From contig JAFGSY010000030.1 in the NCBI GenBank assembly GCA_016934315.1, forward strand, positions 1-64,000: DNA of 64,000 nucleotides, given 5' to 3'. This DNA comes from Candidatus Anaeroferrophillus wilburensis (GTDB lineage: Bacteria > Desulfobacterota > Anaeroferrophillalia > Anaeroferrophillales > Anaeroferrophillaceae). The position numbers and the translations under genes were made by a program. Shown one piece after another: positions 884-45,842 of this stretch. The first letter of the stretch is position 1. Every line of letters begins with the position of its first letter. The notes below the pieces were generated by a model. That model was not told where the DNA came from. It did not search any database and was given only the letters and a program-made list of their open reading frames with translations.

Positions 884-2773
884 ATGAGTTTTCTGGAAAA
901 TATCAATGATCCCGCTGATCTGAGACAATTGAATATTGTCGACCTTATGGACCTGGCGGAGGAAATAAGGGAAGTGATTATCCGGACGGTGGCCAGCAAC
1001 GGCGGCCATCTTGCCCCTTCCCTGGGGGTGGTTGAATTGACGCTGGCCCTCCATTATGTCTTCCAGACCCCCGAAGATCTGCTGGTGTGGGATGTCGGCC
1101 ACCAGGCTTATGCCCACAAATTGATTACCGGCCGGCGTGACCGCTTCTCGACCCTGCGCCAGCTCGATGGCCTCAGCGGCTTTCCCAAACGTCAGGAAAG
1201 CCCCTATGATGCCTTTGACGTGGGGCACAGCAGCACGTCCATATCAGCTGCTCTGGGGATGGGATTGGCCAGGGAACAGCAGGGGAAAAAAGGTCGGGTG
1301 CTGGCGGTGATCGGCGATGGCTCCATGACCGCTGGCATGTCCTTTGAAGCCCTGAATCATGCCGGCAGTCTTGACCGTGATCTGATTGTTGTTCTCAATG
1401 ACAATGAGATGTCCATTTCCAACAATGTGGGCGCGTTGTCCAGTTATCTCAATCGCCTGATGACCGGAGAAAAAGTGAACCGTTTTCGCCATGATGTAAA
1501 ATCGGTGCTGACCCACATTCCCGGTGTTGGCAACCCCATTTTCAAGATGGTCAAACGGGCCGAAGGTACCTTTAAAGGTTTTGTTGTTCCTTTGGGTACC
1601 CTCTTTGAGGATCTGGGTTTTCAGTATGTGGGGCCGTTGCCCGGGCACAGTCTTGAAGATCTGGTTGATACCTTCAATAATGTGAAAAAGCTTGAAGGAC
1701 CGATTCTGGTTCATGTCATCACTAAAAAAGGCAAGGGGTACGCCCCGGCGGAAAAAAATCCGGCCGATTTCCATGGGGTAGGACCCTTCGACATAGATAC
1801 CGGGAGAGTGCTGAAAAAGAAAAATGCCCCCATGTCCTATACTGCTGTTTTTGGCCAGGTGCTGGTGAAGTTGGCGCGGGATGACGAGCGCCTCATGGGG
1901 ATTACCGCTGCCATGCCGGCGGGTACCGGGATGGAGGTTCTGGCGCGTGATTTCCCCGGCCGGGTCATTGATGTGGGCATTGCCGAACAGCATGGTGTAA
2001 CGCTGGCGGCCGGAATGGCAACCCAGGGTCTGCGCCCCTTTGTCGCCGTTTATTCCACCTTTATGCAGCGGGCTTACGATCAGATTATCCATGATGTCGC
2101 CCTGCAGCAGCTGCCGGTGACGTTGTGTCTCGATCGGGGCGGCCTGGTGGGCGAAGATGGTCCCACTCATCATGGGATGTTTGACCTTTCCTACCTGCGG
2201 CTGATTCCCGGGTTGACCATTATGGCACCAAAAGATGAAAATGAGTTGCAGCATCTGATGAAAACCGCCCTGTACCTGAACGGGCCGGCCGCAATCCGCT
2301 ATCCCCGGGGCAGTGGTTTGGGGGTGGAGATGGACCAGGTTCTCAGCTGTGTACCGGTGGGTTCCTGGGAGGTGCTGCGCGAGGGAGTTGATGGTGCGGT
2401 GCTGGCTGTGGGTTCGTGCGTTGAGCCGGCTCGTCAAGCAATTGAGGCACTCATGGCAGAGCGGAACAACCTTAAGCTGGCATTGATCAACTGCCGTTTT
2501 GTCAAGCCGATGGACGAAGATTTATTGTGTTCCTGTCTGCGGGAGCAGCCATTTATCCTGACGGTTGAGGAAAATTCGGTGGTTGGCGGTTTTGGCAGTG
2601 CTGTGGCCCAGTTTCAGGCAATAACCGGTGGTATTGGTGGTGCCAGGGTTGTTAACCATGGCCTGCCGGACCGGTTTATTGAGCATGGCAGCTTGACCCA
2701 GCTGCGCCATAAATATGGCCTTGATGCGGAAGGGATAACCGCGCTCCTGAAGACCTTGTTGCAAAACAGCTGA
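884..2773 (+). CDS. dxs: 1-deoxy-D-xylulose-5-phosphate synthase
   Basis: Condenses pyruvate and glyceraldehyde 3-phosphate to DXP, the first step of the MEP isoprenoid pathway (it also feeds thiamine and pyridoxal synthesis). Seen: 629 aa, the usual length; VWDVGHQAY (68-76); the thiamine diphosphate motif from GDGSMTAG (144-151) to LNDNEMS (171-177); catalytic-Glu segment IDVGIAEQH near residue 370; and the pyrimidine-domain motif RGGLVGEDGPTHHG. The ATG at 884 is chosen because MSFLENI is where family members begin and GAGAG lies just upstream. An in-frame ATG at 824 would overlap rpoS. It is close enough to rpoS for cotranscription. Confidence 0.95.
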   Translation: MSFLENINDPADLRQLNIVDLMDLAEEIREVIIRTVASNGGHLAPSLGVVELTLALHYVFQTPEDLLVWDVGHQAYAHKLITGRRDRFSTLRQLDGLSGFPKRQESPYDAFDVGHSSTSISAALGMGLAREQQGKKGRVLAVIGDGSMTAGMSFEALNHAGSLDRDLIVVLNDNEMSISNNVGALSSYLNRLMTGEKVNRFRHDVKSVLTHIPGVGNPIFKMVKRAEGTFKGFVVPLGTLFEDLGFQYVGPLPGHSLEDLVDTFNNVKKLEGPILVHVITKKGKGYAPAEKNPADFHGVGPFDIDTGRVLKKKNAPMSYTAVFGQVLVKLARDDERLMGITAAMPAGTGMEVLARDFPGRVIDVGIAEQHGVTLAAGMATQGLRPFVAVYSTFMQRAYDQIIHDVALQQLPVTLCLDRGGLVGEDGPTHHGMFDLSYLRLIPGLTIMAPKDENELQHLMKTALYLNGPAAIRYPRGSGLGVEMDQVLSCVPVGSWEVLREGVDGAVLAVGSCVEPARQAIEALMAERNNLKLALINCRFVKPMDEDLLCSCLREQPFILTVEENSVVGGFGSAVAQFQAITGGIGGARVVNHGLPDRFIEHGSLTQLRHKYGLDAEGITALLKTLLQNS

Positions 2774-2800
2774 TTTTTTGCTCGTTTTCTTGTGAACATG

Positions 2801-2843
2801 AAAAAAGGGCCTCGATGTACTCCGTCATCAAGGCCCTTTTTTT
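2801..2843. terminator. bidirectional rho-independent terminator between dxs and the OmpA-like gene
   Basis: An A-run and a GGGCCT-C-GATG arm, a short loop, then CATC-A-AGGCCC and a T-run. Because an A-run precedes the stem and a T-run follows it, it can end both dxs (+) and the convergent OmpA-like gene (-), whose stop codons flank it. Confidence 0.85.
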
Positions 2844-2857
2844 GGCTTACTATCCGG

Positions 2858-3514
2858 TTATTGGCCTGTTGCCGGCGCGATTTTTATCTCTACCCGGCGG
2901 TTCATCATCCGTCCTGACTCGGTTTCATTGGTGGCAATGGGTGAACCTTCGCCAAAGCCGATCCGTTCAATTCTCGATGAGCTGACCTGACGCTGGACAA
3001 GCAGATCCGCCACCGCCCGGGCCCGTCTTTGGGACAACTCCATGTTATACTGTTCGGAGCCTGTACTGTCAGTATGGCCTTCAACGCGGATTAAGGTTTG
3101 GGGATACTGCCGCATGATTTCTGCTATCCGGTCAATCTCCGCATATAAACCCGGTCGAATGGTGGCCGAATCAAAATCAAAGGTCAGGTCGCTTTTGAAG
3201 AGAATGGAGAGCAGGTTCCCCTCCCGGCGGATCGTAGCTGCTTCGGAGGCTGCCAGAGCCGCCCGCATATCGCGTTCCTGGTTGTCCATCATCTTTCCGA
3301 CTCCGGCGCCTGCCGCTCCCCCCAGGGCTGCGCCGATGGCGGCTCCCCAAAGTGTACCTTCGGTGTCTCCACCGATGACCTGCCCCAGCACCGCTCCCGC
3401 CACGGCGCCACCGGTGGACCCATAAAGGGTTCCCTGGCCGGTTTTGGTCTGGGGCATGCAGCCGGCCAGCAACAACGCGAGCGTGCACAAGCATAAAGCT
3501 ATTTTTTTCATCAT
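2858..3514 (-). CDS. OmpA-family lipoprotein with glycine-zipper domain
   Basis: Predicted outer-membrane lipoprotein that anchors to peptidoglycan. Seen: signal peptide with lipobox LLAGC (Cys19); a glycine-rich zipper stretch at about 34-74 (GGAVAGAVLGQVIGG, GAAIGAALGGAAGAG); and an OmpA C-terminal domain at about 105-214 with FDFDSATI, GHTDSTGS and NMELSQRRARAV, the peptidoglycan-binding Asp/Arg region. 218 aa. Two consecutive ATGs follow an AGGAGA; the second (3511) has the better spacing. The chalcone-isomerase-like gene ends 10 bp upstream, so the two are probably cotranscribed. It resembles YiaD/Pal-like proteins, but I cannot assign a specific paralogue. Confidence 0.85.
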   Translation of the reverse strand: MMKKIALCLCTLALLLAGCMPQTKTGQGTLYGSTGGAVAGAVLGQVIGGDTEGTLWGAAIGAALGGAAGAGVGKMMDNQERDMRAALAASEAATIRREGNLLSILFKSDLTFDFDSATIRPGLYAEIDRIAEIMRQYPQTLIRVEGHTDSTGSEQYNMELSQRRARAVADLLVQRQVSSSRIERIGFGEGSPIATNETESGRMMNRRVEIKIAPATGQ

Positions 3515-38182: not shown

Positions 38183-38292
38183 CGGGAAAGACCGATATCA
38201 AGGGCTAACTAAGACTGCAGGAAGGGTTGTACAGCAAACAAGAAACCGATAGTGGCAGCCATGCCGATGCAGCAGAAACTCCAAGGAGAGTG

Positions 38293-38574
38293 ATGATGGT
38301 TATTTATGTCGGTCAACTGCCTTTCACGACGAACGAAAGTGATTTGAAGGAACTTTTTGCGGCGTTTGGTGAGATCGCCAGTGTCAAATTGATCATGGAT
38401 CACTATTCAGGCAGATCAAAAGGCTATGGCTTCATTGACATGCCGAGCAACTCGGAAGCTGATGCAGCGATCAAGGCCCTGAACAAAACCATGTTTCAGG
38501 GCAGGGAGATCAAAGTAAATCAGGTGCATAAAGAGCGCCGTGGCAAGCGTTCAAAGCGCCGTTCTCGCTATTAA
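38293..38574 (+). CDS. small RRM RNA-binding protein
   Basis: 93 aa single RNA-recognition-motif protein, like the cold-responsive Rbp proteins of cyanobacteria and many Desulfobacterota. RNP2 IYVGQL (4-9) and RNP1 KGYGFIDM (43-50) are intact; the tail is very basic (KERRGKRSKRRSRY). AAGGAG lies before two adjacent ATGs (38293 and 38296), the second with the better spacing. Follows the DEAD-box helicase. Its last 65 bp overlap the convergent endonuclease V-like gene. Confidence 0.9.
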   Translation: MMVIYVGQLPFTTNESDLKELFAAFGEIASVKLIMDHYSGRSKGYGFIDMPSNSEADAAIKALNKTMFQGREIKVNQVHKERRGKRSKRRSRY

Positions 38575-39289
38575 TCGTCTGGTCTGATGTGTTTATGGTC
38601 CATGCCAGCAGGTCACTCAGGGCGGTGGAGGCAGTGAGATAGGGCTCTTGGCTAGCCAGGGCGCGATGTTGAATCTCCCGCAGCAGCCGGCATGATGACC
38701 ACGACTCGACCTTGGCTTTCGGCCCAGGCGGAGAGTCGGATACATATCCCCACATGTGCTGCAGGGCGTTTTGCAGGCCGCTGGTCGATGGTGGCTGGCG
38801 CAGCAGCGCCGTCAGCAGCTCAGCCAGTTCTGCGCAATCATTTTTGGCCCGCCGTCCAGCCACCTGCCGACCTATTTCCCGATAAAGATTGACATCCCGG
38901 GCAAGCACCGAATATTTATGCTGGCTCCACAGCTGCTGGACATTTTTTGGTAAGGGTATCCGGCCAGGTTCCTTGTCGCGGTATTTTTCGGCCAGCAGCT
39001 GAAACTGCCGGCCGGGCAGATCAATATACGATTCCGGCCAACGGCCTTGCCCGTCCTCCGTTACCACCGGCGATCTGTCGGTAAATCCCCGCAATGACAT
39101 TTCAGCTGCCAGCAACGTGTGCCGCTGTCTCAACGCCCAGCCATAACCAACCCAGCGCAGGGTTTCGGGATGTCTCGCATAGCCTTTTTTCCCATTGGTA
39201 ATAATTGAGACAATGCCGTGCAGCTCTCGATGTTCACCAAGCAGACTTCCCCGGTTCAAATAACCCGGATTGATATCCCAAACTCTCAT
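38510..39289 (-). CDS. pyrimidine-dimer glycosylase-like (T4 endonuclease V fold) plus DUF1722
   Basis: 259 aa fusion. N-terminal about 1-75 resembles Pyr_excise/T4 endonuclease V: MRVWDINPGYLNRG start, EHRELHG with Glu22 at the catalytic-Glu position, NGKKGYARHPETLRWVG and QRHTLLAAEMSLRGF. C-terminal about 115-230 resembles DUF1722 (YbgA): KYSVLARDVNLYREIGRQV and LQHMWGYVSD. Presumed DNA-repair protein; DUF1722 function is unknown. Last gene of the minus-strand operon, 12 bp after the LysE gene. Its 3' end runs 65 bp into the convergent RRM gene, and the last ~35 residues look non-conserved. Confidence 0.75.
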   Translation of the reverse strand: MRVWDINPGYLNRGSLLGEHRELHGIVSIITNGKKGYARHPETLRWVGYGWALRQRHTLLAAEMSLRGFTDRSPVVTEDGQGRWPESYIDLPGRQFQLLAEKYRDKEPGRIPLPKNVQQLWSQHKYSVLARDVNLYREIGRQVAGRRAKNDCAELAELLTALLRQPPSTSGLQNALQHMWGYVSDSPPGPKAKVESWSSCRLLREIQHRALASQEPYLTASTALSDLLAWTINTSDQTINSENGALNACHGALYAPDLL

Positions 39290-39301
39290 GTTTTATTCCG
39301 T

Positions 39302-39928
39302 TTACTGTTTGGCTGCAATTGCAATGCCGGCCGCCATCATCACCGCCACGGCAGAGCGGTTGAGCCGGCCGATTGCTTTATGACTTGAAAATAACCGCCG
39401 GGCATAGGTGGCGGCGGCAGCGTAGACGATGAGAACACCACTTAAAACAATGGCGACAATACCAGCGATCATCGCCGCATCCGTTGCCTGCAAACTCGAC
39501 AAATCGATAAAGGTTGGCAGAAAACCGCAGTAGAAAACGATGACCTTTGGATTGGCCAAGGTGACCAACAGGCCGCTTATGAGATTAGCAGTCGGCCGCG
39601 CATCTTTTGACTGGGGAGCTGACGAAGCAAACGCGTGCGGCTTTGCCCGCCAGATGGTGATGCCAAGCCAGAAGAGGTAGGCGCCGCCGCCGATTTTCAC
39701 GACAATAAAAAGTTTCCCCAGGGTTTGCGCCGCCAGGGAAAGCCCGAAGAGGACAAACAACAGATAGATGAGGTCACCCATGACAATGCCGGCAATAACC
39801 GCCAGGGCGGAGTGAAAACCGGAGGCCAGTGACCTGGACACAGTGGCGGCCACTCCCGGTCCGGGGCTGGCCGCCAGAATCAGCATGGCAACAGAAAAAC
39901 TGACAAGTGAAAGCGTATTCATGGTCAT
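39302..39928 (-). CDS. LysE/RhtB-family exporter
   Basis: Inner-membrane exporter of amino acids or similar small molecules; 208 aa with about six membrane helices. Seen: AASPGPGVAATVSRSLASG, the family N-terminal signature, and GLLVTLANPKVIVFYCGFLP. The ATG at 39928 overlaps the ABC ATPase stop (ATGA); ATG 39922 has better SD spacing. The substrate cannot be predicted. Member of the six-gene operon. Confidence 0.85.
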   Translation of the reverse strand: MTMNTLSLVSFSVAMLILAASPGPGVAATVSRSLASGFHSALAVIAGIVMGDLIYLLFVLFGLSLAAQTLGKLFIVVKIGGGAYLFWLGITIWRAKPHAFASSAPQSKDARPTANLISGLLVTLANPKVIVFYCGFLPTFIDLSSLQATDAAMIAGIVAIVLSGVLIVYAAAATYARRLFSSHKAIGRLNRSAVAVMMAAGIAIAAKQ

Positions 39929-40593
39929 TCCGCTTGGATGCGGCCATCATTGAGATGGATGACGGTTTCAGCGTTTTCTGTGATCTCAAGGTCATGGGTT
40001 GCCATAACGATGGTGCACTGATGATCCCGCCCCAGGTCATGCATCAGTTCGACCACCAGTCGGCCGGTTGCCGAGTCCAGGTTGGCAGTCGGTTCGTCGG
40101 CCAGCAATATTCTGGGATTGTGGGCGATGGCTCGCGCCATGGCCACCCGCTGGGTTTCCCCGCTGGAAAGCTCATGGGGCAGGGCCGTTGCCGCTGAGGC
40201 AAGTCCGATCCGCTCCAGCAGTTCACTGATCCGCCGGGCCTGGCTGCTTCCCGTAATGTGATTTAAGGTAAGGGGAAAGCCGATATTTTCGGCAACGGTC
40301 AGATAGGACAAAAGATTACCCCGCTGAAAGACAAAACCCACTGAGCGGCGTTGAAACAGGCTCAGTTCGCGGGCACTGAGGTCATAGATCGGCGTGCCGA
40401 AGCAGGTGATTGTTCCGGTATCCGGCGGCTCCAGGCCGCCCATGCAGTTCAAAAGCGTTGATTTGCCCGACCCAGATTTGCCGATAATGGCGGCAAATCT
40501 GCCTGCTTCCAGGCAAAAGGAAATGTCGTTCAACGCTTTTACTTCCCGACGTCCTGATTGGAACACCTTGGTTACCGATTCCAGTTGTATCAT
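39925..40593 (-). CDS. ABC transporter ATPase (LolD/MacB type)
   Basis: 222 aa ATPase. Walker A GKSGSGKS (38-45), Q-loop FQRGNLLSYLTVAENI, signature LSSGETQRVAMARA, Walker B ILLADEPTANLD and H-loop MATHDLEIT. LolD/MacB-type ATPases pair with FtsX-like permeases and move lipoproteins, lipids or drugs, or perform mechanotransmission. The permease gene ends 4 bp upstream. No MacA-like adaptor or TolC is next to it. Confidence 0.92.
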   Translation of the reverse strand: MIQLESVTKVFQSGRREVKALNDISFCLEAGRFAAIIGKSGSGKSTLLNCMGGLEPPDTGTITCFGTPIYDLSARELSLFQRRSVGFVFQRGNLLSYLTVAENIGFPLTLNHITGSSQARRISELLERIGLASAATALPHELSSGETQRVAMARAIAHNPRILLADEPTANLDSATGRLVVELMHDLGRDHQCTIVMATHDLEITENAETVIHLNDGRIQAE

Positions 40594-40597
40594 CGAC

Positions 40598-41773
40598 TCA
40601 AATCATCCTTATAATCTCAGCGGCTTTTTTCCTGGCCAGCAGTACTGCCGGCCAGGTTGCGGCTATCAGACTGAAGCAGAGTGCGGTTGCCGGCGGTGCC
40701 AGGAGGGAAAAAACCGTCAGACGCGGATAGATGATTCCCGATACGCTGAAATAGCGGTTGTGGGAGGTCAAGGCGGTTATGTCAAGGCCGCCGGACGCGG
40801 CAATCCCCCATACCGCCAGCAGGCCGATCAGCAGGCCGACACCGCAGGCAATGATGTTCATCAACGCTACTTTCAGGACGATCAGAATGGACATTTCTGT
40901 GGTAGTTACTCCCATGGCTTTCATAATGCCGTATTCACGGATGTTCTTGATGATGAAAATGACAAAGGAGCAGGCGATGCCAACGGCAACCACACCGAAC
41001 ACCAGAAAAATGACGATGGCCATGGAGATGTACTGCAGATCAATGAGCTGCCGCAGGTCCGGCATCAGCATTTCCCAGGAGTCAAATTGGTAGCTCTCCG
41101 GCCATTGCTGCCGATAGGCGGCAATGATGTCCCTGGTGTCTTGGCCGCGCTGGAGAAAAACCGCTGCCGACCAGGTGAGGTCCCGCATCGGCAACAGGAA
41201 CAACGGGCAGAATGCGACTCCATGATCCAGCTGATCAATGTTGGTCTGGTAGATGCCGGTCACCGTCAGTTCCAAAAAACCGGCCAGGGCAGGGGAGCGG
41301 AATTGCAGGACGTTACCCACATGAATGCCCAGCTCCTCGGCAATGGGTCTGCTGATCAGCACTTGGGCAGTGCCGCTTTGCAGGTAGCTTCCGGCAACAA
41401 TCTTTTTCGGCAGAGCGGTCATGGCACTTTCGCGGCGGGGATCGACAGCGCACATCATCAGGGGTTTGTCAAGATTTCCGCGGGTGACAACTCCCGGCAG
41501 GCAGACCCGCTTCAAAACCCCTTCAACTCCATCGACCATCAGGTCCTCGGGCACAACCGAAGCGGCCAGCTTATGGCCGCTAATATGCCCCGAAAACAGT
41601 CCAATGGTATTCCGGAGCATGGCGTCGTTGACGCCGACCGCCAGGGCTGAAAGAAAAATCAGCGCCGCCACTGCGGTGATTACCATGATGGACAGGGATG
41701 CGGTGGAACGACCGGAGCGGATGAGAAACAGCAAAGCGACGCGGGCCCAGAAGCCAATACCGTTGATTCTCAT
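40598..41773 (-). CDS. FtsX/MacB-like ABC transporter permease
   Basis: 391 aa with the FtsX-type topology: one membrane helix near residues 25-50, a large extracytoplasmic domain of about 200 aa, then three helices (about 255-285, 305-330, 360-380). ECF-loop segment IREYGIMKAMGVT is diagnostic. The start overlaps the isoprenoid-synthase-like stop (TAATG). Resembles LolC/E and DevC-type permeases; a hydrophobic substrate made by the upstream genes is an inference. Confidence 0.85.
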   Translation of the reverse strand: MRINGIGFWARVALLFLIRSGRSTASLSIMVITAVAALIFLSALAVGVNDAMLRNTIGLFSGHISGHKLAASVVPEDLMVDGVEGVLKRVCLPGVVTRGNLDKPLMMCAVDPRRESAMTALPKKIVAGSYLQSGTAQVLISRPIAEELGIHVGNVLQFRSPALAGFLELTVTGIYQTNIDQLDHGVAFCPLFLLPMRDLTWSAAVFLQRGQDTRDIIAAYRQQWPESYQFDSWEMLMPDLRQLIDLQYISMAIVIFLVFGVVAVGIACSFVIFIIKNIREYGIMKAMGVTTTEMSILIVLKVALMNIIACGVGLLIGLLAVWGIAASGGLDITALTSHNRYFSVSGIIYPRLTVFSLLAPPATALCFSLIAATWPAVLLARKKAAEIIRMI

Positions 41774-42789
41774 TACCGTGCCATCCCCATGAACCGGTCG
41801 GCGCCGATTCGCTCTTTAAGAAACTGACTTGCCGGGGTTACCAGGGACTGATGGTCGGCGGAAAAAAGCAGGGAGAGGCCGCTTGCCAGAAACCGGCTGG
41901 CGGTTGCGGCTGCCTCTGACAGGCTTGCGGGGAAATCAGTTGTCAGATCCACGGTCAGCAGCTGGCGTCCCCGGGCGGCGAGCAGTTCCTGCAGCCGCTT
42001 TTTTTCCACCTGGTTCTGGCTGTGATGGATCAGCGAGACCAGGAAATTGTGCCGTTTACGCTCCAGATCAGAAGTGAAATCCACCATGTCATCCATGACC
42101 TGGCAGCCCATACCGGTACGGTAGAGTCCCTGCAGCAGTGGCGTAACGCTGGACTCATCCATCTCCTCAATGGCCAGGGGAATATCCCACGGGCAGGTGA
42201 ACAGCATTCCTGTTTTGTGGTGATGGACCGTTTGCAGCAGCTCATCCGGGGCGATAATAGTCGTTATACCCGCTTCCTCCGAAGCCTCCTGGACACCGCT
42301 TCTGGTCATTGTCCGCATTGATGCGCTTGTTGCCGCCGCAACCTGGTCCATGGTGATTTCCTGCCGGCGGCAGGCTTCAAGAAGGAGCTGGAAAAGTACC
42401 CGGTCCGAAACCATGATATCGATCACCGAACGGAAGCGGAGAGCGGTTTCTGGAATATCGGTGTCCAGTGTCTTCTTGTATTCATCGTCCAGCAGGTTGT
42501 CGCAGCCGGTAACCATGCCCCGCAGGCACTGGAGTGCGGCCGCGTAGAGGATGCGGCGCGGTTTCGGCAGCCGGGCACGGTGAAAGGAGTAGAGAAACAG
42601 AAGCGAGAAGAAATTCCGTTTAAAGGAAAAATCAGCTTCCCCGGGTGGCTTGAGTTCAACCCCGCCCTGGCGGAGAATGTCGTCGGCAATCTGCCAGTAA
42701 TCGGCAAGGCCGGCTCTCAGCTCCCCAGACAGCGTCTTCATCTGAGAAACGTTTTCCATTAAGGTAATGGGGTTCAAGGGCTTTTTCAC
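41773..42789 (-). CDS. class I isoprenoid synthase-like protein (polyprenyl synthetase fold)
   Basis: 338 aa all-helical protein. Two aspartate-rich motifs in the right order: DNLLDDE (97-103) and DDMVD (233-237, in GCQVMDDMVDF), and KTGMLF (192-197) between them, as in trans-prenyltransferases. The first motif is not the canonical DDxxD, so chain elongation may be altered, or the enzyme may use another prenyl reaction. It is not close to IspA/IspB. It is flanked by a methyltransferase (9 bp upstream) and an ABC permease (1-base overlap), suggesting modification and export of a prenyl product. Confidence 0.7.
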   Translation of the reverse strand: MKKPLNPITLMENVSQMKTLSGELRAGLADYWQIADDILRQGGVELKPPGEADFSFKRNFFSLLFLYSFHRARLPKPRRILYAAALQCLRGMVTGCDNLLDDEYKKTLDTDIPETALRFRSVIDIMVSDRVLFQLLLEACRRQEITMDQVAAATSASMRTMTRSGVQEASEEAGITTIIAPDELLQTVHHHKTGMLFTCPWDIPLAIEEMDESSVTPLLQGLYRTGMGCQVMDDMVDFTSDLERKRHNFLVSLIHHSQNQVEKKRLQELLAARGRQLLTVDLTTDFPASLSEAAATASRFLASGLSLLFSADHQSLVTPASQFLKERIGADRFMGMAR

Positions 42790-42798
42790 GATTACCCC

Positions 42799-43503
42799 TT
42801 ATAATCCTGGTTTTCTGGTCTGGAACAGGGAAACATACCCAAAATAGGTGGCAACAATTTCCGGTCGTTGAAAGCCGGCTTGTTCCATAACATCCGGCAG
42901 GACGCCGCGAATATTCTCCCCGATCTGCGGCTGCATGAAGAACCATCGGGAGGCGTGAGAGAGCAGGGCGCCCATCCAGGTGGTGGGTATGTGCATGTCA
43001 GCGATGACCAGCCGACCGCCGGGCCGCAGGACACGGAATGCCTCTGTGAAGGCCATTGTTTTTAAGCTCAGCGGCACATGATGAAAAAAAAGACTCGATA
43101 CCACGGCATCGAAGGAATCGTCCTCATAGGACAGGGATTCGGCGGCCACAACCTCAAAGATGCAATTGACCGCAGCGCGTTTTTTCCGGGCGACCTGAAT
43201 CATCTTTGCGGCTGCATCAATGCCCACCGCCATTCCACCCGCCGCCGGGTCAAGCTTATCGGCAATCATCCGTGTCAGTACGCCGGTGCCGCATCCCAGG
43301 TCAAGGACCCGATCAGAGTCCGCAAGCTCAAGCAGGGAAAGAATATGCTTATCGTAATCGGCTTGTTTCCCGAGCAGCAGAAGCGGTTCGAGAGTATCAT
43401 AAACAATGGCGGCATGATCAAGGGTCCTGCCCCGGGTCGGTACGGAATGTAATGCCATTGCTTTAGCTTCCCGTGCTGAAGTCCAGTTGTAATGAGGTTT
43501 CAC
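42799..43503 (-). CDS. class I SAM-dependent methyltransferase (UbiE-like)
   Basis: 234 aa. Motif I VLDLGCGTGVLT, acidic loop GIDAAAKMI, motif II region DSFDAVVSSLFFHHV and FRVLRPGGRLVIADMH as in UbiE/COQ5-type enzymes. Membrane-lipid or quinone substrates are common in the group. GTG start at 43503; ATG 43458 is an alternative that would remove 15 residues. First gene of the six-gene minus-strand operon. Confidence 0.8.
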   Translation of the reverse strand: MKPHYNWTSAREAKAMALHSVPTRGRTLDHAAIVYDTLEPLLLLGKQADYDKHILSLLELADSDRVLDLGCGTGVLTRMIADKLDPAAGGMAVGIDAAAKMIQVARKKRAAVNCIFEVVAAESLSYEDDSFDAVVSSLFFHHVPLSLKTMAFTEAFRVLRPGGRLVIADMHIPTTWMGALLSHASRWFFMQPQIGENIRGVLPDVMEQAGFQRPEIVATYFGYVSLFQTRKPGL

Positions 43504-43583: not shown

Positions 43584-43865
43584 TTACTGATCGACAGTTC
43601 CACCACCTGCTTTGACCTTGGGTGGACCGACCACGGCCTTTTTAACGCGGATTCTGTTGCCGGCCACATCCGTGCCATTGAGGTTCCTCATTGCCGCATT
43701 GGCCTCACCTGGCTTCGGCATTTCTATGAAACCGAAGCCTTTGGAACCACCGGTCTTCTGGTCCAGAACCAGGGAGCAGAACTGCACACTCCCGTAGGCT
43801 TCAAACATCTCTCTGAGTTCTTTTTCAGACGTGGTGCGGGCAAGATTGCGGATGAGCAGTTTCAT
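43584..43865 (-). CDS. second small RRM RNA-binding protein
   Basis: 93 aa, one RNA-recognition motif: RNP2 LLIRNL (3-8) and RNP1 KGFGFIEM (42-49), with a basic/Gly tail (VKKAVVGPPKVKAGGG). Same length and layout as the RRM protein at 38293 but clearly diverged. The start at 43865 begins the first RRM strand and has AAGGA upstream at long spacing. Likely a post-transcriptional or cold-response RNA chaperone. Confidence 0.88.
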   Translation of the reverse strand: MKLLIRNLARTTSEKELREMFEAYGSVQFCSLVLDQKTGGSKGFGFIEMPKPGEANAAMRNLNGTDVAGNRIRVKKAVVGPPKVKAGGGTVDQ

Positions 43866-44023
43866 GGAATTCCGGATCCTTCTCAATGGTTGATGTTATG
43901 GCCTCTGGAGAGGCTGATACCTGAATTATTTTTTTTAACCGCTTCTGGTACTGCACAACGTTGTTGAGTTATTTGGTTGAGAGGTCGCTGGCGGGCTGCC
44001 TTTCGATGGCCATTTTCGGGCAG

Positions 44024-44801: not shown

Positions 44802-45842
44802 TCAGGAAACCAGGGCCGGCCAGTCGCCGTTCATCTCCAGGTAGGCGGCAAGGTTGCGCGGCCGATATTGTGGCTCATTGTCCCATCGCTGTTTCACGCT
44901 GGCATGGAGCAGCACCGGTCCCTTGCCGTGGTCGATGGGCCGGTAATAGGGACTCTTGGAACGGTAGATATGGCGCCGTGAGTTGTGCAATGTAGCATCG
45001 GCGCGACCGTTCAAACTGGCCGTCAGATGGGGTTCCAGGGTCAATCCGGCCTGCTTGGCCTCAGCCATCATCCAGCCCAGCGGAATATCCGACAGCAGCC
45101 CGCCGGTTTCCTTGTCCGGCGCATAACTGCCGCCGATGTTGCTGTGCACCCCGGCAAACCAGACCTGTTTCAGGTCGAGCCCCGGCCGCGGCAGCCAGAC
45201 GGTGGGCTCGAAGTCAGAGCGTAGTTCGTCAATGGCCAGGGCGTGGCGGGCAATCTCAATGTTGGGGCCGATCTTGGTATCGTAGAATTCATCCTTTTTA
45301 TCCAGCAGGCCGAGGAAGGAGAAGGGAATTCCCAGGGCGCCCACCGTGTCCCACACCCCGGCAAAGGTCACCTGGCGGCTCGGATGGGCATGGGCCTCGC
45401 GAAAAGCAATGGATTTCTCCCCCCTGGGGGCGTAAGCCTTGCCCGGGTTTTTATAGTGCGCAAAAGCCACCTCGATGAGTCGGGCATCGGGCCGTTTGAG
45501 AATGCCGCAGTTGTATATCAGGCCGCACAAGCTGCGCACCGTATAAGCGCCGCGGCTGAAGCCGAACAGAAATATCTCGTCACCGGGGGCATAGTTCTGG
45601 ACGATGTAGCGGTAGTCGTCCATGATGTTTTTGTTCAGGCCCCTGCCGGTGGCGCCGCCGATCACCGGATCGTAATAGGAACCAATTCCCCAGTCGTAGA
45701 ATACCTGCTGCGGTTTCCCGTCGTCAGCCACCGGGCTTACGGCCCGTGCCAGACGCAGCACATTGGTGGGAAAATCGTTGCTCAGATCCTTTTCCGGCCG
45801 GTTCCAGGTGCCGTCGGCACAGATCACAATGCGCTTTTTCAT
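44802..45842 (-). CDS. DUF2235 alpha/beta-hydrolase (Tle1-like phospholipase fold)
   Basis: 346 aa. Nucleophile motif GFSRG with Ser96, Asp165 in GVWDTVGALG and His233 in GVHSNIGGSY form the expected triad; the N-terminus is VICADGTWNRP. DUF2235 includes type VI secretion phospholipase effectors of the Tle1 family, but also stand-alone enzymes. No VgrG, PAAR or immunity-like gene is adjacent and no signal peptide is seen, so a housekeeping lipase/esterase is equally possible. Confidence 0.82.
   Translation of the reverse strand: MKKRIVICADGTWNRPEKDLSNDFPTNVLRLARAVSPVADDGKPQQVFYDWGIGSYYDPVIGGATGRGLNKNIMDDYRYIVQNYAPGDEIFLFGFSRGAYTVRSLCGLIYNCGILKRPDARLIEVAFAHYKNPGKAYAPRGEKSIAFREAHAHPSRQVTFAGVWDTVGALGIPFSFLGLLDKKDEFYDTKIGPNIEIARHALAIDELRSDFEPTVWLPRPGLDLKQVWFAGVHSNIGGSYAPDKETGGLLSDIPLGWMMAEAKQAGLTLEPHLTASLNGRADATLHNSRRHIYRSKSPYYRPIDHGKGPVLLHASVKQRWDNEPQYRPRNLAAYLEMNGDWPALVS

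Follow-up and report, generated by a model that had tools for sequence, protein, structure and literature searches.

We propose that a four-gene cassette of Candidatus Anaeroferrophillus wilburensis may make, methylate and extrude a small isoprenoid-derived lipid, a reading to which we give a probability of about 0.48. The cassette lies on the minus strand of the 64,000-nucleotide stretch analysed here (positions 1 to 64,000 of contig JAFGSY010000030.1, assembly GCA_016934315.1; hereafter the window), and it encodes an S-adenosylmethionine (SAM)-dependent methyltransferase, a 338-aa protein resembling isoprenyl diphosphate synthases (IDS), a permease of the LolF/LolC/LolE type (type VII ATP-binding cassette, ABC) and a LolD-type ATPase. 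Support for the mechanism is the conservation of these genes, the fold of the IDS-like protein, the loss of its site for isopentenyl diphosphate (IPP) and the loss of the Hook from the permease. A first-pass annotation of this DNA had suggested that a six-gene operon makes, methylates and exports a prenyl lipid; the conserved quartet, and neighbours in relatives that fit an isoprenoid or lipid substrate, uphold part of this idea, but chain making, and a LysE and a DNA-repair gene as parts of the pathway, find no support. We found no description of the four-gene cassette in the open-licence literature, and it is apparently undescribed so far.

When 84,980 species genomes were scanned with the 338-aa protein, 18 loci were found, almost all of them in delta-proteobacterial or Desulfobacterota metagenome-assembled genomes (MAGs), with Desulforhopalus sp. 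IMCC35007 in addition. Within the window's phylum, 395 genomes searched with a profile yielded 24 matches at E<=1e-8, the weakest of which probably include ordinary prenyl synthases. The neighbourhoods of the relatives, which are mostly MAGs, were mapped with profiles made in this analysis, and 35 non-duplicate loci carrying the 338-aa family were tallied by hand, several of them truncated by contig ends. The methyltransferase adjoins the IDS-like gene on the same strand in 25 of the 35, the permease does so in 24 and the ATPase in 20, and all four core genes occur together in 18. The order methyltransferase-IDS-permease-ATPase is retained even in a 29%-identical branch (L079, L080) from the window's own taxonomic order, while families f64 and f83 show the order ICMT-like, IDS, methyltransferase, permease. 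The arrangement is not due to chance, since many genomes repeat the core order at protein identities of 29-67%. The conserved unit, shared by sulfate reducers and their relatives, is the methyltransferase, the 338-aa IDS-like protein, the LolF/FtsX-type permease and the LolD-type ATPase only. The first-pass annotation would have given up its reading had the quartet not been neighbours in related genomes, and they are adjacent in most of the 35 loci; its six-gene operon holds as a local layout but not as a conserved unit, only the first four genes being conserved.

The 338-aa protein (41773-42789, minus strand) is, as modelled, a distant member of the trans-isoprenyl-diphosphate-synthase fold. 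It matches Pfam polyprenyl_synt (PF00348) at 29.1 bits, with a cut-off of 27, and its AlphaFold2 model (19 family members; pLDDT 92, pTM 0.90) is essentially all-helical. Foldseek matched this model to geranylgeranyl diphosphate (GGPP), octaprenyl and decaprenyl synthases and to the Trp farnesyltransferase Ord1 at TM-scores of 0.5-0.6, with E-values to the GGPP and octaprenyl synthases of 3e-6 to 5e-4. Thirty family members were compared, residue by residue, with 17 canonical synthases of the same phylum, to which they are less than 25% identical. The first Asp motif is DNxxD (D97 N98 D101), its second Asp having become Asn in 30/30 members, whereas DDxxD stands in 17/17 canonical enzymes; the non-canonical first motif noticed in the first-pass annotation is thus real and invariant. 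The second motif is an intact DDxxD (D233 D234 D237), and the metal-ligand residues D97, D101, D233, D234 and D237 are the same in every member. In contrast, the residues that mark the IPP site, all kept in the 17 canonical enzymes, are gone: the IPP-binding Arg of GGKxxRP is Phe in all 30, and the IPP-binding His has become Arg (26 members) or Met (the other 4). RRG is likewise absent throughout the 30, RR being present in 17/17 of the canonical set. An independent profile alignment paired these same columns.

The same kind of change has been met elsewhere. Replacing the Arg at the GGKxxR position by Pro in a fungal GGPP synthase abolished IDS activity and gave terpene synthase activity (PMC7484799), and loss or substitution of the IPP-binding motif is a mark of insect terpene synthases (PMC10962984). 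These two studies supplied our definition of an IDS-derived terpene synthase, namely an IDS fold, both Asp motifs and substituted IPP motifs; the cassette enzyme has all of these, with DN rather than DD in the first motif. Its residues predict not a chain builder but either a terpene-synthase-like enzyme acting on a single substrate or a prenyltransferase whose acceptor is other than IPP, and the earlier statement that it makes isoprenoid chains finds no support, as the chain-extension site is lost in every member. A housekeeping octaprenyl or farnesyl diphosphate (FPP) synthase was rejected as its identity. The window genome encodes an FPP-type and an octaprenyl-type synthase, both with all canonical motifs, the latter being a different gene (G000:C12), as the first-pass annotation's reading needed; and in a maximum-likelihood tree the canonical enzymes and the IDS-like family stand on opposite sides of one 100/100 branch. 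With two housekeeping synthases in the genome, the product of the cassette therefore need not be bulk prenyl diphosphate.

The permease (40598-41773, minus strand; 391 aa) matches Pfam FtsX at 42.6 bits and the ATPase (39925-40593, minus strand; 222 aa) matches ABC_tran at 116 bits, which bears out the earlier call of an FtsX-type ABC exporter. By profile the permease is closest to LolF (5e-36) and LolE (7e-32), with MacB at 1e-6, although it falls below the curated LolCE cut-off (59.7 vs 362 bits), as does the ATPase below that for LolD (201 vs 307.75 bits). Its AlphaFold2 model has four helices of transmembrane length and a periplasmic domain, with a short loop (160-165) at the place of the Hook, and its best Foldseek matches are to LolCDE (8e-20). 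The Hook-bearing segment measures 30 residues in 11/11 canonical LolF proteins, in all of which the Hook is present, vs 20-25 residues in 17/17 cassette permeases, in all of which the Hook hairpin is 5-10 residues short. Each of 11 genomes (the window's own and ten others) encodes exactly one canonical LolF above the curated cut-off, and the cassette permease is therefore an extra paralog. In E. coli the Hook is essential for LolA recruitment and lipoprotein trafficking (PMC10865981). We think that the cassette pump, although LolF-like in its build, probably does not pass its cargo to LolA, because the permease is without the LolA-recruiting Hook. A canonical lipoprotein transporter is made less likely by the missing Hook, and MacB-type tripartite efflux is the weaker match, with no gene for a membrane-fusion protein in the window operon.

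The first core gene encodes the methyltransferase METHYLTRANSFERASE, the slowest-changing of the four core proteins (63-80% identity in the main clade of relatives and about 41-45% in distant ones). Matches to Pfam Methyltransf_25 (80 bits) and to the UbiE-like family (58 bits), with Methyltransf_11 also among its family assignments, confirm the methyltransferase call of the first-pass annotation. It passes the cut-off of none among the best 25 NCBIfam models, scoring 78.4 vs 158 bits for MenG/UbiE and 99 vs 180 bits for CpaM. Housekeeping MenG was rejected as its identity, because of this shortfall and because another gene elsewhere in the window genome passes as the true MenG at 264 bits. 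Since the relatives align from the Met at 43458 and GGGAAG stands upstream of it, the gene probably starts at this ATG (42799-43458, minus strand; 219 aa) and not at the GTG at 43503.

Taken together, these proteins suggest the following route. The IDS-like protein would bind a ready-made allylic diphosphate, for example FPP or GGPP supplied by the two housekeeping enzymes, hold the diphosphate through Mg2+ on its DNxxD and DDxxD motifs and ionise it; lacking an IPP site, it would then quench the cation internally in the manner of a terpene synthase, with no IPP added. The soluble UbiE-like methyltransferase, judging by its family and strict co-conservation, may methylate either the diphosphate or the product, and in some lineages an ICMT/PEMT-like membrane methyltransferase may do so too. 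The LolF-like/LolD pair could extract the lipophilic product from the inner membrane, as its family relationships suggest, and a YceI-type carrier, where one is encoded first in the operon, could receive the cargo instead of LolA.

The extra genes that accompany the cassette in relatives agree with such a substrate. A YceI-type gene (PF04264, 76 bits; polyisoprenoid-binding-type) stands first in the operon at L019, L021 and L022, and a gene for an ICMT/PEMT-like membrane methyltransferase at L068, L074, L075, L076 and L077; both fit an isoprenoid or lipid substrate. In nine loci the gene directly after LolD encodes a c-type diheme lipoprotein of about 80 aa that carries a lipobox Cys and a pair of CxxCH motifs, and in several of them it overlaps the LolD stop by 4 bases. 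Among the 395 genomes this diheme family has four strong matches, of which three fall in cassette-bearing genomes. Neither the diheme lipoprotein nor YceI was found in the window's own genome. The diheme lipoprotein, which only part of the family has, is a hint of a redox role. Loci at which the diheme lipoprotein was recorded are L015, L016, L020, L023, L025, L026, L028, L065, L066 and L147, and its conserved motif is GxHGPSI...ECLECH...HPxFxGCLKCH. One of these, L028, belongs to the cultured Desulforhopalus sp. IMCC35007, which carries the whole quartet together with the diheme gene. A bolder and, as a whole, improbable version of our proposal would join these parts: a new bacterial terpene-synthase family (DNxxD, IPP site lost), whose methylated product passes through the Hook-less LolF/LolD pump, and then by YceI or another carrier in place of LolA, to the outer membrane or cell surface, and in some lineages serves there, alongside the diheme lipoprotein, as an extracytoplasmic redox lipid of anaerobic sulfate reducers and their relatives.

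Several points weigh against a cassette that makes, methylates and extrudes an isoprenoid lipid. The function proposed for it would rest on residues and gene company; the PF00348 match is barely over its cut-off, has its best part only in the C-terminal half and falls below the cut-off in several relatives; the structural matches of the IDS-like model reach a TM-score of only 0.5-0.6; and the IDS and LolF comparison sets were both drawn from one phylum. The change from Asp to Asn in the first motif could weaken catalysis, not redirect it. The IDS-like gene occurs without the methyltransferase or permease at L067, L069, L070, L072 and L078, and the genome of L012, the closest relative, contains no close copy of the permease. 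The diheme lipoprotein of nine loci, moreover, points to a redox role, for which a plain terpene gives no explanation.

The question of which acceptor, if any, the IDS-like enzyme uses brings in the alternative that we take most seriously, although we consider it unlikely: that it is a prenyltransferase acting on a non-IPP acceptor (the Trp of a peptide as in ComQ, PalQ and ChrPC, free Trp as in Ord1, or another small molecule or lipid), with the methyltransferase modifying the product and the ABC pair exporting it, perhaps as a signal. There are indeed enzymes of the IDS fold whose acceptor site has been repurposed, the acceptor having been switched to Trp in ComQ, PalQ and Ord1 (PMC13290415), and structures of Ord1 are among our Foldseek matches. 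The Gln directly before the second Asp motif, which such an enzyme would be expected to share, is invariant in 30/30 members, but it does not discriminate, being present also in 17/17 canonical enzymes; similarly, the two-component genes that precede the cassette in L012, L014, L024 and L026 are in its favour, but are not general. No conserved small open reading frame (ORF) that might encode a peptide substrate was found within 700 bp upstream or downstream of the cassette at the 26 loci examined; this tips the balance a little towards a terpene synthase, without deciding the matter. That the protein still elongates chains, as a prenyl diphosphate synthase of altered chain length, deserves very little weight: it has the same fold, PF00348 over cut-off and, in the main clade, a conserved KTG and DDxxD region, but the GGKxxRP Arg, the IPP His and RRG are all lost in 30/30 members, and the genome already has two canonical synthases. 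Non-catalytic IDS-like small subunits exist in plants, and with one Asp of its first motif replaced by Asn the 338-aa protein might likewise tune a housekeeping synthase; we give this scarcely any weight, as five metal-ligand Asp residues invariant in 30/30 members would be needless in a non-catalytic subunit.

The remaining alternative starts from the pump. The ABC pair might be a dedicated sorter of the outer-membrane diheme lipoprotein, with the isoprenoid-type enzyme and the methyltransferase serving an electron carrier such as an unusual quinone. The LolF/LolC/LolE kinship of the permease, the 4-base overlap of the diheme gene with LolD, the lipobox and haem motifs of its product and the three of four strong diheme matches that fall in cassette genomes would all agree with this. 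We nevertheless hold it to be improbable: the Hook that is essential in E. coli (PMC10865981) is missing in 17/17 permeases, most cassettes, and the window genome, lack the diheme gene, and around the diheme gene of one genome (G392) the 18 kb examined contain no cassette gene. A defence system was also considered and rejected, PADLOC giving no meaningful defence match at the cassette, only generic methyltransferase and ATPase matches.

Comparison with known systems shows where the cassette would be new. Like the IDS-derived terpene synthases of insects and rust fungi (LlTPS, PsTPS1, MliILTPS), its enzyme combines the IDS fold and both Asp motifs with replacement of the IPP residues, including the GGKxxR Arg; unlike them it is bacterial, has a fixed DNxxD, is very distant in sequence and belongs to a methyltransferase/ABC cassette, the likeness being one of fold and motifs. 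With the Trp prenyltransferases ComQ, PalQ, the P domain of ChrPC and Ord1 it shares the IDS fold, a seemingly repurposed acceptor site and a Gln beside the second Asp motif that canonical enzymes have as well, but unlike the ComQ/PalQ type the cassette is without a conserved adjacent peptide gene in the 26 loci examined and has the permease, ATPase and methyltransferase instead. The LolDF/LolCDE lipoprotein extractor similarly pairs a LolF-family permease with its own LolD-type ATPase, whereas the cassette permease has its Hook deleted and is additional to a canonical LolF, and the pair scores below the LolCE and LolD cut-offs. The methyltransferase belongs to a superfamily common to the UbiE/MenG quinone methyltransferases, but differs from them in its score (78 vs a cut-off of 158 bits). 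The clusters for 2-methylisoborneol, sodorifen and grimophan rely on methyltransferases of other families and on classic terpene synthases, and they are not known to have a LolF/LolD exporter. The proposed pathway would share with these bacterial C-methylated terpene clusters the logic of pairing a SAM methyltransferase with a class I cyclase (PMC13022886).

The cassette thus offers a testable gene set in anaerobic bacteria, in which an IDS-fold family has apparently turned to a single substrate or switched its acceptor; the route from IDS to single-substrate enzyme is documented in insects and rust fungi, and for this bacterial group we found none in the open-licence literature. If our proposal is true, Lol extraction machinery would have been reused for lipids other than lipoproteins, with a Lol-type pump freed from LolA, and there would be an isoprenoid product to search for in these bacteria, possibly one diagnostic of them.

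Downstream of the conserved quartet in the window are two further genes. The ORF coordinates (43503-42799, 42789-41773, 41773-40598, 40593-39925, 39928-39302 and 39289-38510) and a reading of the DNA at all five junctions (+9, a 1-base TAATG overlap, +4, a 4-base ATGA overlap and +12) agree with the six-gene minus-strand run and the spacings first reported. The fifth gene (39302-39928, minus strand) encodes a LysE/RhtB-type exporter, correctly recognised from the outset as LysE (Pfam LysE, 115 bits), and, overlapping the LolD-type gene by the same kind of ATGA, it occupies the place of the diheme lipoprotein in nine relatives. The sixth (38510-39289, minus strand) encodes a pyrimidine-dimer DNA glycosylase fused to DUF1722, with matches to Pyr_excise (PF03013, 81.6 bits, residues 1-74) and DUF1722 (PF08349, 37.1 bits, residues 125-185). 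PF03013 is a family of the T4 endonuclease V (DenV) type, and the earlier description of this protein as endonuclease V-like is right in that T4 sense but not for an Nfi-type endonuclease V. Neither gene has a match in any relative locus examined; they are unrelated local passengers, with no support for a part in the pathway. The GC content of the cassette is 0.53-0.59, as in its flanks, with no composition of a horizontal island, and promoter and terminator matches at the locus were no more frequent than in shuffled sequences.

Some relatives of the IDS-like protein lie in other settings or are broken. A second DNxxD branch (family f45; L067, L069, L070, L072), with Met at the His position, sits among unrelated genes (HtpG, a phosphotransferase-like gene, a dipeptide-type ABC operon) and has neither methyltransferase nor LolF-like genes beside it, and a very divergent, long-branch member (L078, 8632-11960) adjoins genes for an RND/MMPL-like transporter and a multiheme-type cytochrome. 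On CP070694.1 (L024/L147) the IDS gene is broken into two overlapping pieces (residues 5-256 and 156-335) that lie about 29 kb from each other and split the cassette, the second piece having beside it the permease, ATPase and diheme genes of that genome, which suggests an insertion or an assembly rearrangement; in another relative (L022, around 2321-3354) the gene is interrupted by a frameshift or TGA in a MAG contig. Our plasmid search found one lone distant relative, with no cassette around its gene, on Fusobacterium varium plasmid AP017969.1 (L149, 6860-7768; 23% identity, annotated as hypothetical). Its NFF, CLR and TDNxxD features are of the DN type, and the DN-type family therefore extends beyond Desulfobacterota.

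In the window the cassette is bracketed by two genes for RRM_1 RNA-binding proteins in inverted orientation, at 38227-38574 (plus strand) and 43584-43886 (minus strand), whose products are 41% identical over 76 aa; this inverted pair is possibly a landing or recombination site. The upstream copy lies about 80 bp from the GTG at 43503, on the same strand as the methyltransferase. Further upstream, at 44802-45842 (minus strand), a gene encodes a protein with a type VI secretion system Tle1-like phospholipase catalytic domain (PF09994, 277 bits).

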